This document shows positions 1,158 to 6,922 of a stretch of 33,620 nt of DNA, one piece after another. Each line of letters begins with the position of its first letter. Position 1 is the first letter of the stretch. A program made the translations under genes and the position numbers. Under the pieces are notes generated by a model, which worked only from the letters and a program-made list of their open reading frames with translations, was not told the DNA's origin and made no database searches. This DNA is from a virus, in the IMG/VR virus record IMGVR_UViG_3300042305_000488, positions 1-33,620 of that record. One strand, given 5' to 3'.

Positions 1158-1222
1158 TTGATCCCCAAAATCAACTCGATCATCACCGCCAGTAAGATTG
1201 CCATTGCTTCACCGATTTTCAT
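1154..1222 (-). CDS. 22-residue hydrophobic microprotein
   Basis: Minus-strand ATG at 1222 to TGA at 1156-1154. The peptide has a short charged N-terminus, then a hydrophobic core (AMAILLAVMIELILGIK), long enough for one membrane span. Its start lies inside the last codons of the DnaA-domain gene (14-bp overlap) and its stop overlaps the next start as ATGA, as in other junctions of this operon. The ribosome binding site (GGGAT) is only moderate. The coupling pattern is the main support; a chance frame cannot be excluded. Confidence 0.4.
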   Translation of the reverse strand: MKIGEAMAILLAVMIELILGIK

Positions 1223-1466
1223 AGCGTTTGATCCCGTGCATAATGGTCGTATGGTCGCGCCCGCCTAGCACTTGGCCGATTAGCTGGAGCGGCGCGTTAA
1301 GCTCGTTACGTGCGCGCCACATGATCTCGAACCGGGGCCAGATGACCCCCTTGCGCCGATTGTGGCCGGTGAGGGCCTCGGTTGATAGGTTATGATTCCG
1401 GGCTGTTTCCTCGATCAGCTCCCGAATCTCGTCGATTAATGCGTTCTGCTGACGGGTGAGAGCCAT
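1209..1466 (-). CDS. Stand-alone DnaA domain IV (DnaA-box-binding) protein
   Basis: The 85-residue product matches the C-terminal DNA-binding domain of the bacterial initiator DnaA. It has a leading helix (residues 1-25), then LSTEALTGHNRRKG with the basic-loop arginines, the WPRFEIMWRAR helix, and the signature GGRDHTT at residues 68-74 in the recognition helix. The AAA+ ATPase and DnaB-contact domains are absent. Full-length DnaA is about 450 residues. In DnaA this domain contacts the box TTATNCACA. The start at 1466 is strongly supported by AGGAG eight bases upstream. Since it lacks the ATPase, I infer a repressor, origin-marking protein or competitor of host DnaA rather than a complete initiator. 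DnaA-box-like elements lie in the promoters of the same operon (3,148-3,156 and 3,509-3,517). Confidence 0.88.
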   Translation of the reverse strand: MALTRQQNALIDEIRELIEETARNHNLSTEALTGHNRRKGVIWPRFEIMWRARNELNAPLQLIGQVLGGRDHTTIMHGIKRYENR

Positions 1467-1656
1467 TTTTACTCCTAAGCATGAAATTGAGCGCGTGCGC
1501 TGCGGTTACGATTGAGCGTTCATCGGCGTAGGGCGCATGAATTTTAAGGATCAATGTCCCGTCGCGGCGATGGAAGGATAGAAAACTTTCATCGTCTTTT
1601 TTGCGCCAGTTGACGCGGACGCCTCCGGCTTCCGTTTGCATGTCAATTTTGAGCAT
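1390..1656 (-). CDS. Hypothetical protein overlapping the DnaA-domain gene
   Basis: An 88-residue frame starting at ATG 1656 with GGAG about ten bases upstream. The start lies 14 bp inside the end of the preceding 50-residue gene. The first 60 residues alternate beta-like and charged segments and look like a real small domain. The last 25 residues are read from DNA that also codes for the DnaA-domain protein in another frame, a 77-bp overlap that is long even for phages. The C-terminal tail is therefore less certain. No family recognised. Confidence 0.5.
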   Translation of the reverse strand: MLKIDMQTEAGGVRVNWRKKDDESFLSFHRRDGTLILKIHAPYADERSIVTAAHALNFMLRSKNGSHPSAERINRRDSGADRGNSPES

Positions 1657-1795
1657 GGCCGCGCTTCTCCAGCTCGTTCATTATGATCTTGGCGCGGTAA
1701 TCGTCCTGTTCTGTCTCTAGCAGGATGTTGAGCGCCTCATCGGACAGCCAATGTAAGAGTTGCGAGAACTCAAAGTAATCCTTCATACGGCTCAT
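1643..1795 (-). CDS. 50-residue acidic hypothetical protein
   Basis: ATG at 1795, TGA ending at 1643. The peptide starts MSRMKDYFEFSQLLHWLSDE and is helical and acidic, with a basic C-terminal end. Its start codon shares one base with the stop of the upstream 31-residue gene (TAATG), and a run of six G bases lies about eight bases before it. Its 3' end overlaps the next gene by 14 bp. The tight coupling on both sides supports it. No family recognised. Confidence 0.6.
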   Translation of the reverse strand: MSRMKDYFEFSQLLHWLSDEALNILLETEQDDYRAKIIMNELEKRGHAQN

Positions 1796-1890
1796 TATAT
1801 GCCCCCCAGTAGATATGTTACAAAAAGAGCGAGCGCGGGGATTGCCAGCGCTGCGCCGATAGCAAAGGCGATTAGGTCAGTCTTGTTCAT
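1795..1890 (-). CDS. 31-residue single-span membrane microprotein
   Basis: ATG at 1890 to TAA at 1797-1795. After a short polar start (MNKTDL) nearly the whole peptide is hydrophobic (IAFAIGAALAIPALALFVTYLLGG), which predicts one transmembrane helix. AAGGAAG six bases before the ATG is one of the best ribosome binding sites in the operon. The start overlaps the preceding gene by 14 bp and the stop shares one base with the next ATG. Small early phage membrane peptides sometimes alter host membrane processes, but nothing in the sequence gives a specific role. Confidence 0.65.
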   Translation of the reverse strand: MNKTDLIAFAIGAALAIPALALFVTYLLGGI

Positions 1891-2173
1891 AATCTTCCTT
1901 ACAGGCGGCGTACACGTCACGGCTGGCGCATAGAATAGCCTCGACCTGTCTAAAGAGCGGATCGGTCTGCTCTATGCAGCGGTCGGGCTCTCTAGCCTTG
2001 TCGGCGCTTATTGTGAGGTGCTGTAGCTCTATATCGTATGGGCCGCCGTCGTCGCCTGTGTCGCGGTCACGGCCTTCCCATTTGTAGGTGAGAGTCGCAA
2101 CGCCATAGGCATAAATGGCCATGCCCGGCCAAGGCTGGAATTCATCAAGCTCATATTCGATTTGATATGACAT
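1877..2173 (-). CDS. Acidic hypothetical protein
   Basis: A 98-residue acidic protein (MSYQIEYELDEFQPWPG) with a beta-rich N-terminal half and a helical C-terminus containing two cysteines. I chose ATG 2173 rather than the upstream GTG 2188 because it has GGAG nine bases before it and forms TAATG with the stop of the upstream gene. It overlaps the following 31-residue membrane peptide gene by 14 bp. Related small proteins of this look occur in phage early regions, but I cannot name a family. Confidence 0.65.
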   Translation of the reverse strand: MSYQIEYELDEFQPWPGMAIYAYGVATLTYKWEGRDRDTGDDGGPYDIELQHLTISADKAREPDRCIEQTDPLFRQVEAILCASRDVYAACKEDYEQD

Positions 2174-2334
2174 TAGAGCCCGCTCCACTTTTCAGTCCAG
2201 TATTCCTCGGCCGCGTTTGTGTGCGCGTCCTGTAGCGTCTTAAACGCGAAGTCTAAGACGGGTGACCGCTCCACTATGGATAGGTGATCTAGCAGCGCTT
2301 CAAGCGCTTGAATCTCGATTTGTACTTCGATCAT
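2173..2334 (-). CDS. 53-residue hypothetical protein
   Basis: ATG at 2334 to TAA at 2175-2173. The peptide begins MIEVQIEIQALEALLDHL and is helical and acidic throughout. Both ends are coupled: the ATG overlaps the stop of the upstream 153-residue gene (ATGA) and the stop shares a base with the next ATG (TAATG). This explains what would otherwise be a gap in the operon. No function can be assigned. Confidence 0.65.
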   Translation of the reverse strand: MIEVQIEIQALEALLDHLSIVERSPVLDFAFKTLQDAHTNAAEEYWTEKWSGL

Positions 2335-2792
2335 AGCGTTGCCCTCAAGAATTGACGCGCGACCTGTTCGACGTTGTCTAGGCTGGCGATGGAAGCGGCG
2401 AGCGACAATGACAGGCCGAACCGGGCAAGGAACGCGGTCAACTCATGTTCCGGCACTTTGGCGATGATAGCCGCGGCCTGTTCAAGCTTAGCTTTGGGGA
2501 CGCGCTTGCGCGGTATGACGGCGACGGGTTCGGCTTTGGGTTGCGCCGGCCACCGATACACGCCGTTTGTTTTGGTTGCTTCCGCCAAAATTATTGGGCG
2601 CAGCTTCTCGTTATACATCGCCAGCCCGGCGCGGCGGCGCTTTGTCTCTTTGTCGATTGTAGGGTTGCGCGCTGATCCGCCGCGCACCTGCATGTCTTTA
2701 AGACAGGTGCCGATATACGCTACACCATGGCCGGAAAACTTCACGCCCGGCGCTTGCCATTGGGCGTCCATCCATTCTTTTAAGCTGGTCAT
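2331..2792 (-). CDS. Hypothetical protein with helical C-terminal domain
   Basis: A 153-residue basic protein. ATG 2792 is preceded by GGAG eight bases upstream. The N-terminal 80 residues contain a Gly-rich stretch (SGHGVAYIG) and many basic residues. A Pro/Lys/Arg linker around residues 82-100 leads to a C-terminal helical region from about residue 100. Long antisense frames in this stretch have no supporting signals and were set aside. It is preceded by its own promoter-like element and a terminator hairpin, so it may be a separate transcription start inside the operon. No family recognised. Confidence 0.65.
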   Translation of the reverse strand: MTSLKEWMDAQWQAPGVKFSGHGVAYIGTCLKDMQVRGGSARNPTIDKETKRRRAGLAMYNEKLRPIILAEATKTNGVYRWPAQPKAEPVAVIPRKRVPKAKLEQAAAIIAKVPEHELTAFLARFGLSLSLAASIASLDNVEQVARQFLRATL

Positions 2793-2804
2793 GTCGTCTG
2801 CTCC

Positions 2805-2841
2805 GGTGGATATGTTGCAAAAGAAAAGGCGACGCCGTGAA
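2805..2841 (-). promoter_or_regulatory. Promoter-like element with repeated AACATATCCAC motif
   Basis: On the minus strand CAACATATCCACC (2817-2805) matches the motif found before the genes at 3,127 and 3,488. A weak -35 (TTCACG, 2841-2836) lies 18 bp upstream, in the loop of the terminator hairpin. The motif ends 13 bases before ATG 2792. Compared with the other copies the -10 and -35 are poorer, so activity is uncertain. Confidence 0.45.
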
Positions 2842-2849
2842 GCGCCGCC
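2819..2849 (-). terminator. Rho-independent terminator inside the leftward operon
   Basis: On the minus strand GGCGGCGC, loop of six, GCGTCGCC forms an 8-bp stem with one G-T pair (2849-2828), followed directly by TTTTCTTTT (2827-2819). It lies six bases after the stop of the gene at 2855-3127. A promoter-like element overlaps it, so transcription would stop and restart here. Confidence 0.7.
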
Positions 2850-2854
2850 TGTGA

Positions 2855-3127
2855 TTATCGCGGTATTCTGATTCCATCGAAAAACGGTGACTCGCTTCCG
2901 TCTTTCAGGCGCACAAACCAGTCGCCTTTATGCTGGTAAACTCCAAAGCCGAGCCCGAATTGATTGGCCGCTTGGTTCATTTTGTTTTTAGTTGTCGCGG
3001 TCTGCCAGCCGCCGCTGTTTAGTGTGACCGTATTGTCATCCCATGACACGATCCGGGTTGACACATAGGTGACGCCGCTGTTGTCCCACGTCGTCCGGTA
3101 GTTTGAGAGTTTGTCCATTCTAGGCAT
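2855..3127 (-). CDS. Conserved-type small phage protein, function unknown
   Basis: A 90-residue beta-rich protein starting MPRMDKLSNYRTTWDNSG, with VTYVSTRIVSWDD, NSGGWQTATT and GVYQHKGDWFVR segments. From memory very similar small proteins occur in many tailed phages, always unassigned. The ribosome binding site GAGGAG lies eight to nine bases before ATG 3127 and is strong. A promoter with the repeated motif precedes it and a terminator follows, so it may be a single-gene unit within the larger leftward set. Confidence 0.75.
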   Translation of the reverse strand: MPRMDKLSNYRTTWDNSGVTYVSTRIVSWDDNTVTLNSGGWQTATTKNKMNQAANQFGLGFGVYQHKGDWFVRLKDGSESPFFDGIRIPR

Positions 3128-3147
3128 GTTGTCGTCTCCTCTTGTTA

Positions 3148-3182
3148 TGTGGATATGTTACGATAAAGGCCGCGCATGTCAA
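3148..3182 (-). promoter_or_regulatory. Sigma70-like promoter with DnaA-box-like element
   Basis: Minus strand: -35 TTGACA (3182-3177), 16-bp spacer, -10 TAACAT (3160-3155), then ATATCCACA (3156-3148), one base from a DnaA box. The 24 bp at 3,137-3,160 match 3,498-3,521 upstream of the next gene at 23 positions, including the ribosome binding site. The -35 sits in the loop of a perfect hairpin (3,168-3,192). The layout suggests control by a protein that binds the box, possibly the DnaA-domain protein of the same operon. Confidence 0.7.
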
Positions 3183-3192
3183 TAGCGCGGCC
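3161..3192 (-). terminator. Hairpin after the 3198-3488 gene, weak terminator
   Basis: GGCCGCGC (3168-3175), 9-base loop, GCGCGGCC (3185-3192): a perfect 8-bp stem starting a few bases after the stop at 3198. On the minus strand only TTTAT follows, so termination would be partial. Its loop holds the -35 box of the next promoter. Confidence 0.55.
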
Positions 3193-3197
3193 TCTAA

Positions 3198-3488
3198 TCA
3201 GATGGTAATGGTTATTTTGGCAAGGAAGCCGCTTTCGTCGATGGTGACGTTCGCGGGTATTTCATGCAGCTTGATATATTCTTTTACGCCCGTTTCCTTG
3301 AACGCGCGCTTGATGATAGCGCCGAACATGTCGCTGTTAGCGTATGACCCATACTTGGCGTGGCTGCGGAACGCCGCCATGTCGCAGTGACGGCGCTCTA
3401 TCGCTGGCACTTTGATCCAACGCCACGCGGGCGTTTCGTCGGCATTGTATATCGTCTTGATTTTAGCTTTGAAGGTAATATCTGGCAT
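3198..3488 (-). CDS. Hypothetical protein, first gene of leftward operon
   Basis: A 96-residue basic protein starting MPDITFKAKIKTIYNADETPAW. It ends in a beta-like segment (FLAKITITI). The middle (residues 37-70) contains HAKYGSYANSDMF and a Lys/Arg-rich helix. GAGGAA eight bases before ATG 3488 is a good ribosome binding site, and a complete promoter with a perfect DnaA box lies just upstream. It diverges from the rightward gene at 3612. No family recognised; being promoter-proximal it is probably an early gene. Confidence 0.7.
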   Translation of the reverse strand: MPDITFKAKIKTIYNADETPAWRWIKVPAIERRHCDMAAFRSHAKYGSYANSDMFGAIIKRAFKETGVKEYIKLHEIPANVTIDESGFLAKITITI

Positions 3489-3508
3489 TGTCGCGGTTCC
3501 TCTTGTTA

Positions 3509-3544
3509 TGTGGATAAGTTACGCTTGACTCGGCGCGGCGTCAA
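3509..3544 (-). promoter_or_regulatory. Leftward promoter with a perfect DnaA box
   Basis: Minus strand: -35 TTGACG (3544-3539), 17-bp spacer, -10 TAACTT (3521-3516), overlapping TTATCCACA (3517-3509), which is an exact DnaA box. The ribosome binding site and ATG 3488 follow 21 bp further on. An 8-bp inverted repeat spans the spacer and -35. This looks like a regulated early promoter. Confidence 0.72.
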
Positions 3545-3547
3545 GCG
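3522..3547. repeat. Inverted repeat between divergent promoters, putative operator
   Basis: CGCTTGAC (3522-3529) and GTCAAGCG (3540-3547) are perfect inverted arms with a 10-bp centre. They cover the leftward -35 and spacer and end seven bases before the rightward -35. The position is that of a classic operator controlling both divergent promoters. Which protein binds is unknown. Confidence 0.55.
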
Positions 3548-3881: not shown

Positions 3882-3889
3882 TGATAAAC

Positions 3890-3928
3890 GTAAAGAAGCG
3901 TAGCATACGTTTTGTTACGCTTCTTTAC
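3890..3928 (+). terminator. 13-bp perfect hairpin, possible terminator
   Basis: GTAAAGAAGCGTA (3890-3902) and TACGCTTCTTTAC (3916-3928) are perfect inverted arms with a 13-base loop, starting eight bases after the stop of the 3612 gene. The T content after the stem is low (TTGTGG), so it is a weak intrinsic terminator or a protein-binding palindrome. Confidence 0.5.
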
Positions 3929-3934
3929 TTGTGG

Positions 3935-3953
3935 CGTCGTAAAGCGTCGTAAA
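3935..3953 (+). repeat. Tandem CGTCGTAAA, 10-bp period
   Basis: CGTCGTAAA occurs at 3935-3943 and 3945-3953, ten bases apart, so both copies face the same side of the helix. This spacing is usual for protein-binding iterons. It lies seven bases after the 13-bp hairpin. Confidence 0.6.
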
Positions 3954-4029
3954 TCTTGTGAATATAGTTGCGGCGTTGGTAGGAAATAGTCTTGACGGCA
4001 TGGCGCTGCAGACGAGGGATTTCCTACTA

Positions 4030-4045
4030 ATAGTCATATAGTCAT
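4030..4045 (-). repeat. ATGACTAT repeat pair 1 (inverse orientation)
   Basis: Two abutting copies of ATAGTCAT, the complement of the ATGACTAT repeated at 4141-4157 and 4253-4268. The pair faces the other two pairs across the gene-free region. Confidence 0.65.
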
Positions 4046-4090
4046 ATTGATGGTATAGGTTTGAAAATAAATTAGTGTAGTAAAGTGTAA

Positions 4091-4107
4091 TTACGGTTTG
4101 TTACGGT
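4091..4107 (+). repeat. Tandem TTACGGT, 10-bp period
   Basis: TTACGGT at 4091-4097 and 4101-4107. The first copy overlaps GGTTTG (4095-4100), which is inverted at 4120-4125 (CAAACC). Confidence 0.5.
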
Positions 4108-4140
4108 AAAACGCTGTAGCAAACCTGCATGTGCTCAAAT

Positions 4141-4157
4141 ATGACTATCATGACTAT
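4141..4157 (+). repeat. ATGACTAT repeat pair 2
   Basis: ATGACTAT at 4141-4148 and 4150-4157, separated by one base. Same motif as the pairs at 4030-4045 and 4253-4268. Confidence 0.65.
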
Positions 4158-4187
4158 ACCTCGCCTCGCACCGCTGCAATCAACCCA

Positions 4188-4229
4188 AGGTCGCCCTGTG
4201 ATGACATGCCAGGTCGCCCTGTGATGACA
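4188..4229 (+). repeat. Two copies of a 19-bp direct repeat
   Basis: AGGTCGCCCTGTGATGACA is present at 4188-4206 and again, identical, at 4211-4229 (period 23 bp). It is flanked on both sides by ATGACTAT pairs. It is GC-richer than its surroundings. Confidence 0.8.
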
Positions 4230-4252
4230 GCTCGCAGCAACCTCTGATCTCG

Positions 4253-4268
4253 ATGACTATATGACTAT
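4253..4268 (+). repeat. ATGACTAT repeat pair 3
   Basis: Two abutting copies of ATGACTAT (4253-4260, 4261-4268), followed by the inverted-repeat segment ACTTAA/TTAAGT at 4278-4298. Confidence 0.65.
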
Positions 4269-4441
4269 TGATTGTCAACTTAACGTAATGGTTTAAGTGT
4301 ACATTCAATCTGGATCTGAGCCGTCGACATATAGCTGGGGATTGTAAACAGGGAGGGGGGCTGGGCCGAGGGATCTCCTTTAAGAAATACGCAGGGTCTG
4401 CACGAACTTTTTTATTTTTTATTTTAGTGGTAAAAGACTTT

Positions 4442-4948: not shown

Positions 4949-5393
4949 CGCTGAAACTGGCCTATTCACTAATCGGGTATTTCGAGGTTTGAGAGCGCTA
5001 GAAGGCGCTAACGCCGGAAGTCTAACATCTGGCGGCTACATAGAAATTTCTATCCGTCGACGTAAATACGCCGCGCATCGTTTGGCTTGGCTATATGTTT
5101 ACGGTGAATGGCCTCGACATAACGTAGACCACATAAACAGAATAAAGACAGATAACCGCATTTGTAATTTGCGCGACGTGACTCAAATTGAGAACGGGCA
5201 AAATAAATCTCTTCACTGCAATAATACGTCAGGAGTCACCGGCGTAGATTGGCACCGCAAGAATAAACGCTGGCGGGTAAGAATACGCGTTAATTGGCAA
5301 AGTATTAACTTAGGCTATTATGTTAATCTATCTGACGCCATTGAAGCTCGAAAATCCGCCGAGTTAAAATACCACCCCTATAGGCCGCGATAA
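4902..5393 (+). CDS. HNH endonuclease with AP2-like DNA-binding domain
   Basis: A 163-residue protein with the layout of phage HNH homing endonucleases. An N-terminal region (LLNYDAETGLFTNRV) is followed by the nuclease core AAHRLAWLY...NVDHINRIKTDNRICNLR, which supplies the H-N-H residues, then an AP2-like segment (NTSGVTGVDWHRKNKRWRVRI). Such enzymes make a site-specific nick or break and spread into alleles lacking them; some HNH proteins next to terminases help packaging. ATG 4902 is preferred over GTG 4884 because GGA lies about eight bases upstream. The gene starts inside the small terminase and shares one base with the large terminase start (TAATG), so it sits in the middle of the packaging pair. 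Confidence 0.9.
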   Translation: MTLITAQEVRRLLNYDAETGLFTNRVFRGLRALEGANAGSLTSGGYIEISIRRRKYAAHRLAWLYVYGEWPRHNVDHINRIKTDNRICNLRDVTQIENGQNKSLHCNNTSGVTGVDWHRKNKRWRVRIRVNWQSINLGYYVNLSDAIEARKSAELKYHPYRPR

Positions 5394-6922
5394 TGCAAGA
5401 ACCGAGATATGACGCCGACGGCGAAATGCGATTGATGGCGGCCCTGTGGTCGCCTCAAGTCGCCAATGATCCTTTGGCCTTTGTGCGGATGGCTTTTCCC
5501 TGGAAACAACCGGGGACGCCATTGGAGCGTTTTGACGGGCCTAGAAAGTGGCAACGCGACATTCTCATCGACATGCGCGAACACATCAAAGCAAACGATG
5601 GGCGCATAGACTTTGAAATGTTCCGACTGGCCGTGGCGTCTGGCCGTGGTATTGGCAAGTCAGCTTTGGTGTCGTGGATTATCTTATGGTTCTTATCCAC
5701 GCGCATCGGGTCTACGACGGTCGTATCAGCCAACTCAGAGGCGCAGCTTCGGTCGGTCACTTGGTCGGAACTGACTAAATGGTCGGCCATGTCGATCAAT
5801 AGCCATTGGTTTGAAACAAGCGCCACCAAGCTCACGCCGGCTAAATGGCTGGCGGAATCGGTCGAGCGAGATTTGAATAAAGGCACTCGATACTGGTATT
5901 GCGAGGGCCGTCTTTGGAGCGAAGAGCGGCCGGATAGTTTCGCCGGTATCCATAACCATGACGGCGTGCTGTTGATATTTGATGAGGCAAGCGGCATACC
6001 AGACGCCATCTGGTCGGTCAGCAACGGATTTTTCACAGAAAACACGCCTAATCGGTTCTGGTGCGCGTTTTCTAACCCTCGCCGTAATAGCGGGACGTTT
6101 TATGAATGCTTCAATAGCAAGCGCGAGTTCTGGTCTACCCGCATAATTGATGCCCGCACGGTCGAAGGGACGGATAAAAACCTTTATGACCAGATCATCG
6201 CGGAATATGGTGAAGACAGCTATCAAGCCGCCGTCGAAGTACGCGGCGCGTTTCCGAACGCGTCTGACGATCAGTTCATAGGGTCGGCGCTTGTAGACGC
6301 GGCTATGGAGCGCGAACGCTGGAATGACCCGACCGCGCCCATCATCATCGGCGTTGACCCGGCTCGTTTTGGGGCTGACTCGACGGTCATAGCCGTCCGG
6401 CAGGGCCGCGACATTATAGCCATTAAACGGCATAAGGGAGCCGATACGATGGAGGTGGTGGGCCATGTCATCACCGCCATCGAAAACTATCAGCCGGCGC
6501 TGGTGGTGGTGGACGAAGGCGGTTTAGGAGCCGGCGTCGTGGATCGGCTAAAAGAGCAGCGTTATAAGATCAAGCCGGTTAACTTTGGCGCGGGGTCTAA
6601 GAACCGGGCGGCCTTTGGCAATAAGCGGTCGGAAATGTGGAATGATATGCGGCTATGGCTTCAAACCGCGTCTATTCCTAAGGATAAATTCCTAAAGTCT
6701 GATTTAACCGGCCCTATGGCTAAACCGGATTCTTCCGGCCGGATCTTTTTGGAATCGAAAAAAGACATGAAGGCGCGTGGCCTTGCGAGCCCCGACGCCG
6801 CCGACGCTATCGCCGTGACGTTCGCGTATCCGGTCGCGCACAGGGAAGCAAGACCAATGGACAATAGACCGCGCGTAACGTATGGTGGTAACGCAGCCTC
6901 TTCAGGATGGATGGGACACTAA
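5393..6922 (+). CDS. Terminase large subunit
   Basis: The 509-residue motor that pumps DNA into the prohead and cuts it. The ATPase half has a Walker A motif SGRGIGKS (residues 83-90) and Walker B LLIFDEAS (D197, E198). The nuclease half has [12 protein letters not shown] (D322), VVVDEGG (D374, E375) and SPDAADAIA (D468, D471), the acidic metal-binding set of the RNase H-like fold. Length is normal for the family. It follows the HNH gene with a TAATG overlap and ends with TAATG into the next small gene, so packaging and portal genes are probably translated together. The short Gly/Arg-rich C-terminus is where portal contact is expected. Confidence 0.96.

Follow-up and report, generated by a model that had tools for sequence, protein, structure and literature searches.

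In Escherichia coli, a TTATCCACA box mediates repression of the dnaA promoter by DnaA itself (PMC8203912), and DNA-binding units resembling DnaA domain IV are already known as regulators of gene transfer agents: GafY (also HdaB, CCNA_01111) of Caulobacter binds the gafYZ promoter and GafA of Rhodobacter autoregulates (PMC9632790, PMC11150451, PMC6363796, PMC9638019). Oriented arrays of 13-bp operators are likewise known, from mycobacteriophages. The stoperators of cluster A phages (L5) are asymmetric, 13 bp long and located in promoters and in short gaps between genes, with an orientation tied to transcription; one monomeric phage protein binds them, and they stop elongating polymerase (PMC9283540). 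In cluster K, the SAS/ESAS elements are 13-bp asymmetric repeats just before the starts of small non-structural genes, in one orientation and with upstream inverted repeats in some copies (PMC3203893). Here we describe an asymmetric 13-bp element containing a DnaA box in the early-type operon of a podovirus-like phage (IMG/VR record IMGVR_UViG_3300042305_000488; the whole 33.6-kb record is called the window below), together with a stand-alone DnaA domain IV protein encoded by the final gene of that operon. What seems new, judged from sequence comparison, is that a phage protein consisting of domain IV only is paired with DnaA-box operators over the whole early-promoter set, and that the pairing was kept as the layout changed between clades. 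We found no description of such a phage protein-operator pairing in the open literature, most subscription papers being outside this scope. The initial annotation stated that it knew of no described case of this kind; this does not hold, as GafY/HdaB and the N terminus of GafA regulate phage-like genes and E. coli DnaA represses its own promoter.

Two exact copies of the element, TAAC(T/A)TATCCACA, lie on the minus strand of the window: TAACTTATCCACA at 3509-3521, before gene 3198-3488 and with orthologs in relatives, and TAACATATCCACA at 3148-3160, before gene 2855-3127. Their first 24 bases are identical at 23 of 24 positions. The initial annotation was right about this repeat, about the gene starts at 3488, 3127 and 2792, and about a perfect DnaA box at 3509-3517 (consensus TTWTNCACA) that covers the 3′ half of a −10 and the bases immediately after it. 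The promoter concerned is sigma70-like, with TTGACG (3539-3544), a 17-bp spacer and TAACTT (3516-3521). In the second copy, ATATCCACA (3148-3156) departs from the box consensus at position 1. A promoter-like TTGACA (3177-3182) lies 16 bp from the TAACAT (3155-3160) of this second copy, also on the minus strand. Two exact 13-mers in the 2.5-kb operon are a count never reached in 5000 dinucleotide-preserving shuffles (mean 0.0002); looser matches across the whole window are unremarkable, both for TTATCCACA with 1 mismatch (9 found vs 5.3 expected) and for the 13-mer with 3 mismatches (14 vs 9.3). The close copy reported before the gene starting at 2792 (CAACATATCCACC, 2805-2817, minus strand) has 2 mismatches and is weak taken alone; because relatives have TAACRTATCCACA or CAACATATCCACA in the same place, ahead of the same gene (2331-2792), it is, on this comparison, a decayed ortholog. 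The degenerate copy reported at 1,809-1,820, before the gene starting at 1,795, was rejected: this sequence (TAACATATCTACT, 1808-1820) is coding sequence inside the open reading frame 1795-1920 (..FVTYLLGG..), its box core is broken by 2 mismatches and it has no counterpart in relatives. No match to the full 24-mer TAACNTATCCACATAACAAGAGGA was found in a scan of viral contigs, so conservation of the leader that follows the 13-mer ends with the nearest phages.

The proposed regulator is encoded by 1209-1466 (minus strand; 85 amino acids), the only PF08299 gene in the window. Its match to that Pfam family (58.3 bits, E 7.7e-16) is well above the curated cut-off of 31.5, it aligns without gaps to domain IV of E. 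coli DnaA (PDB 1J1V, E 2.6e-6), and its structure model (pLDDT 91) superposes on 1J1V at 0.8 Å over 71 residues. The E. coli residues R399, which lies in the minor groove, R432, D433, H434, T435 and T436 are all kept. A replacement of R399 by Trp was considered and rejected, since the ungapped alignment retains R399 and places the Trp at 405. Across 12 divergent members R37, G68, G69, R70 and H72 are invariant, among others. The protein has no AAA+ domain, and TIGR00362 is matched in the C-terminal part only (53 bits vs a cut-off of 343.9); lacking that domain, it is not a full-length DnaA initiator. No close relative of it was found in cellular genome contigs, the best match (46% identity) coming from Anaerolineae/Chloroflexi genomes.

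Relatives (three-digit L numbers below) were gathered with four queries, namely the DnaA-like protein, the 2331-2792 protein, the element itself and the terminase, of which the last gave a set independent of the finding; elements were counted after removal of near-duplicates. A motif search of the records yielded 73 non-redundant copies at gene starts with the pattern TAAC-A/G-TATCCACA, in which positions 3, 6, 11 and 12 are invariant and the others, including the rest of positions 6-13 (TATCCACA), nearly so. All 73 lie on the operon strand and precede a ribosome site with its start codon. Searched without mismatch in 15 whole records, the pattern TAACRTATNCACA occurs in the operon region only, and the mirrored control pattern not at all.

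The copies fall into recurring promoter layouts. First promoters (21 non-redundant) read TTGAC(A/G), one base, TATCCACA, 13-14 bases, TAACATATCCACA. As TTGAC is 22-23 bases from TAAC in these two-box promoters, the −10 is probably located just before TAAC (TATAAA, TATAAC, TAATGT and others), so that the two boxes would be placed behind the −35 and at the start; the −10 of first promoters is poorly conserved. In the window, L005, L193 and L221, TTGACG lies 16-17 bases from TAACTT or TAAGTT, which suggests that TAACTT itself is the −10 and that the box begins inside it; L193 and L221 share the TTGACG-17-TAACTTATNCACA layout of the window. The second TATCCACA directly behind TTGACR, upstream of the start, in the 21 first promoters argues for an operator at the DNA level, not an RNA signal, and a translation role of this upstream box is unlikely because it lies outside the transcript. 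Ahead of most downstream copies stand a strong hairpin and T-tract belonging to the preceding gene, and 18 of 34 non-redundant hairpin-linked copies have a hexamer matching TTGACA at 4 or more of 6 positions, 16-18 bases before TAACAT and mostly in the hairpin loop, most other spacings giving no such hexamer. In the window, the hairpin AGGCCGCGC-TATTGACAT-GCGCGGCCT with its T-rich tail (3167-3193, minus strand; ΔG −23.8 with flanks, −11 kcal/mol for the inner 6 pairs, z −2.15), likely the terminator of gene 3198-3488, holds the TTGACA of the second promoter in its loop, and the intrinsic terminator AGGCGGCGCTTCACGGCGTCGCCT plus TTTCTTTTG (2827-2850, minus strand, z −5.05) stands directly before the 2805-2817 element. 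Terminator hairpins with a −35-like hexamer (TTGACA, TTTACA) in the loop, 16-18 bp from a −10 behind the T-tract, are seen at window 3155-3193, L010 3016, L053 3203 and L064 4518, where terminator and next promoter appear to use the same DNA.

The element also travels with the gene: of 64 distinct relatives by terminase whose sequence extends 3.2 kb or more upstream, 28/28 with the GGRDH-type DnaA domain IV gene contain the element, and it is missing from 34 of the 36 that lack this gene; the two exceptions are L047, a contig cut before the gene position, and L187, with a single 1-mismatch match. A homologue of the 2331-2792 gene persists in L060 and L189, which have neither the element nor the DnaA-like gene. 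Sister clades have diverged DnaA domain IV proteins (KRDHST type) and no TAACATATCCACA, yet their early promoters again carry DnaA boxes, reversed perfect ones (TTWTNCACA) included. In L065, L197 and L304-L310, head-to-head boxes lie over the −10, as TTGACA-N6-TTrTsCACA joined to TGTGTATAAC (also given as TTrTsCACA joined to TGTGTATAA); the left arm is TTATCCACA, TTGTGCACA, TTGTCCACA or TTTTAAACA, and the right arm, TGTGTATAAC, the reverse of TTATACACA, forms the −10 at 17 bp. Promoters of the L187 type read TTGACA...TGTG(G/A/T)AAAAGTC, where TGTGNAAAA is TTTTNCACA reversed. The box core is present in 18/34, 9/16 and 3/15 non-redundant TTGAC promoter candidates of the three clades (element, head-to-head and L187 type), many of the candidates without it being chance TTGAC in coding sequence, compared with 1/50 in phages without the gene and 0/126 for a mirrored control. 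Because sister-clade promoters carry boxes in other layouts and the controls are near zero, the DnaA-box reading is hard to dismiss as chance. Together, these comparisons support both that reading and the link of the element to the phage protein.

We therefore favour, with somewhat better than even confidence, a reading in which DnaA-box operators control the early operon beside the terminase gene and the operon represses itself through the phage DnaA domain IV protein. The 85-residue protein, made from the last operon gene, would bind TAACATATCCACA with its box over the −10/start region; most relatives would offer it the second box as well, directly behind the −35. Bound protein would keep RNA polymerase off, so that the early operon would shut down as the protein accumulates, and each following gene, with its own element just behind the terminator of the preceding gene, would form a separately controlled cassette. 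Occlusion of RNA polymerase is favoured because the boxes lie over the −35, −10 and start, and repression suits such sites since DnaA represses its own gene via a box of this kind (PMC8203912); negative feedback would suit the position of the DnaA domain IV gene at the end of the operon. That gene has no element copy directly before it. The sequences show the sites with their placement and orientation, the terminators, the fold and retained DNA-contact residues of the protein, and the gene-site association in relatives; from these we infer binding, repression rather than activation, and feedback. That the protein acts on the promoters of its own operon had been proposed at the outset; comparison bears out the box reading and the gene-element link in that proposal, and the binding and autoregulation are putative.

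Several observations weigh against this reading. Host DnaA has the same recognition sequence, TATCCACA is mostly preceded by A and not by the T of the classical box, and two E. coli DnaA residues are changed in the phage protein (P423 to Q, R405 to W). The nearest studied DnaA domain IV regulators, GafY and GafA, are activators. The gene-element association amounts to about three evolutionary changes when placed on the terminase tree and could in large part reflect ancestry, and a paired test has no power; the window's place in that tree is unreliable, as it is joined to the long branch of L060 although it is 75% identical to L019. Finally, a clade without the gene (L224, L241, L247; the L224 and L241 records contain no PF08299 gene) keeps one TTATCCACA. 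The initial annotation had regarded boxes kept without the gene as counting against autoregulation, and this clade presents such a case marginally, the box lying about 100 bases or more upstream of the promoter and not over it.

The main alternative for the binder, which we consider unlikely though not negligibly so, is host DnaA: early promoters would be wired to host DnaA levels, and the phage protein would compete at the boxes or act elsewhere. The element core is the universal DnaA box, the clade just described retains its box in the same intergenic region, and host DnaA regulates promoters, those of lambda replication genes included (PMC8203912). However, in relatives without the phage gene boxes lie over the core promoter in a single one of 50 early-promoter candidates, the box arrangement varies with the type of phage protein, and conservation extends past the host consensus to TAAC and the base that precedes TATCCACA.

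For the sign of regulation, the main alternative is that the phage protein works as an activator here, like GafY and GafA in gene transfer agents, which we regard as slightly less probable again. The locus shares with GafY and the N-terminal domain of GafA a small DnaA-IV-like DNA-binding unit (here the 1209-1466 protein, PF08299) as a transcription regulator of phage-derived genes, in our case a predicted one; both act as activators on their own promoters, and many −10s here are weak (TAACAT), besides the poor conservation in first promoters. The sites, however, overlap the core promoter (−35, −10 and start) and do not lie upstream. GafY acts together with IHF and RpoD from a site far upstream, at about −120, in a promoter that has an IHF site and a degenerate −35 (PMC11150451); the −35s here are good (TTGACA/G). 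GafA autoregulation uses the GafA C terminus, and a sigma-like partner (GafZ or the GafA C terminus) is adjacent, whereas the scanned operon proteins gave no sigma-like match and the window holds no second DnaA domain IV protein. The accessible portions of the GafY and GafA papers report no DnaA-box operator repeated over core promoters. Some relatives do encode, far from the operon, a second DnaA domain IV protein of about 195-238 amino acids (L118, L116, L142 and the whole records of L034, L016, L011, L043, L061 and L058); in the 2 that were scanned, a C-terminal helix-turn-helix weakly matches sigma-70 region 4 or LuxR models, reminiscent of GafA, and the protein is a candidate late-gene regulator.

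It is improbable that the 13-mer is a phage-specific promoter or start-associated repeat (a −10 plus leader, spread with cassettes) that resembles a DnaA box by coincidence. TAACAT is the −10 in many copies and start-associated 13-mers without a known binder occur in cluster K mycobacteriophages (PMC3203893), but the core recurs without TAAC behind the −35 of 21 promoters, two other clades with DnaA domain IV genes have unrelated promoter sequences and again DnaA boxes, and the variation at position 5 (L061, L221) falls on the N of TTATNCACA. A T436-to-G change in the L061 protein was considered as the cause of TATACACA in place of TATCCACA and dropped, as L221 keeps T436 yet has TATACACA. Least credible is a reading in which the boxes belong to a phage replication origin and the protein is a replication factor. 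The domain is that of a replication initiator and the noncoding DNA beside the operon is repeat-rich, but the copies are tied to gene starts and single-gene terminators over about 1-1.5 kb in one orientation, that noncoding DNA (3882-4426) has no box cluster, and the protein has no AAA+ domain.

Repression by the phage protein, the reading we prefer, resembles DnaA autoregulation in E. coli and other bacteria in that a DnaA box lies in the promoter region of the regulator's own gene or operon (PMC8203912); there, full-length ATP-controlled DnaA acts at a host promoter, whereas here a phage domain IV alone would act at many operators in one operon. As in cluster A, an asymmetric 13-mer is found in intergenic gaps with its orientation following transcription. 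The stoperator binder, however, is an immunity repressor of another fold in temperate phages, and the sites here are placed after a terminator and before a ribosome site. An integrase was not found among the annotated genes, including those of MW202483, a terminase relative that is complete and circular (38.8 kb). Post-terminator copies might possibly stop elongating polymerase, as stoperators do. Like SAS/ESAS, the element is a 13-bp asymmetric repeat before gene starts in one orientation; unlike SAS, which contains the Shine-Dalgarno sequence and has no known binder, it precedes the Shine-Dalgarno, overlaps promoters and comes with a candidate binder.

A broader proposal, which we offer tentatively and hold to be less probable than the repression itself, is that this phage lineage made the DnaA-box/DnaA domain IV pair into a dedicated early-gene switch and kept the pair while the operator layout was re-invented, with initiation and possibly elongation silenced cassette by cassette in competition with host DnaA. 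The layouts would comprise tandem boxes at the −35 and the start, a −10 formed by head-to-head boxes, and reversed TTTTNCACA at the −10; each cassette would run from the element through the ribosome site and gene to the terminator, whose loop would contain the −35 of the next promoter. Many phages have stand-alone DnaA domain IV genes annotated as replication initiators, and this family of uncultured tailed phages offers a concrete candidate function and target for one of them. An early-promoter regulator with defined operators would, if true, mark a route from a replication-origin recognition domain to a phage repressor. The natural operator variants could be used to study DnaA-box recognition, and they hint at a direct link or conflict with host DnaA.

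The operon (1209-3488, minus strand) runs leftward from 3488, divergent from the terminase gene (5393-6922), a layout also found in relatives, and comprises genes 3198-3488, 2855-3127, 2331-2792, 2173-2334, 1877-2188, 1643-1795, 1390-1656 and 1209-1466. The product of 2855-3127, behind the second promoter, matches Pfam Kyano_Gp96 (4.5e-12) and phrog_554, function being unassigned in both. The first promoter has an inverted repeat, CGCTTGAC...GTCAAGCG, overlapping its −35 and spacer (3522-3545, minus strand), and none like it was seen in the first promoters of relatives. The noncoding, repeat-rich 3882-4426, between the divergent operons, contains AGGTCGCCCTGTGATGACA twice and several AGTCATA/TGACTAT repeats and is a candidate origin or control region; an Rfam search of the window gave no family match. 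In L065 (10209-10600), a repeated palindrome, GTTTACGTAAAC, upstream of the MW202483 early genes is a possible operator of another regulator, and in the clade where no DnaA domain IV gene was found, TTATCCACAGATTTATTT is conserved in noncoding DNA (L224 7985, L241 7541, L247 2754, minus strand), flanked by repeated GACGTC in L224. Within the DnaA-like gene itself (1380-1392, minus strand), a box-like sequence lies in codons for H-N-(I/L/V)-S-T, such as CAT AAC ATA TCC ACC, and likewise at L023 4579, L040 6060, L031 6060 and L041 4969, with the rare Leu codon CTA in every Leu case; it may be an intragenic operator or reflect shared ancestry.

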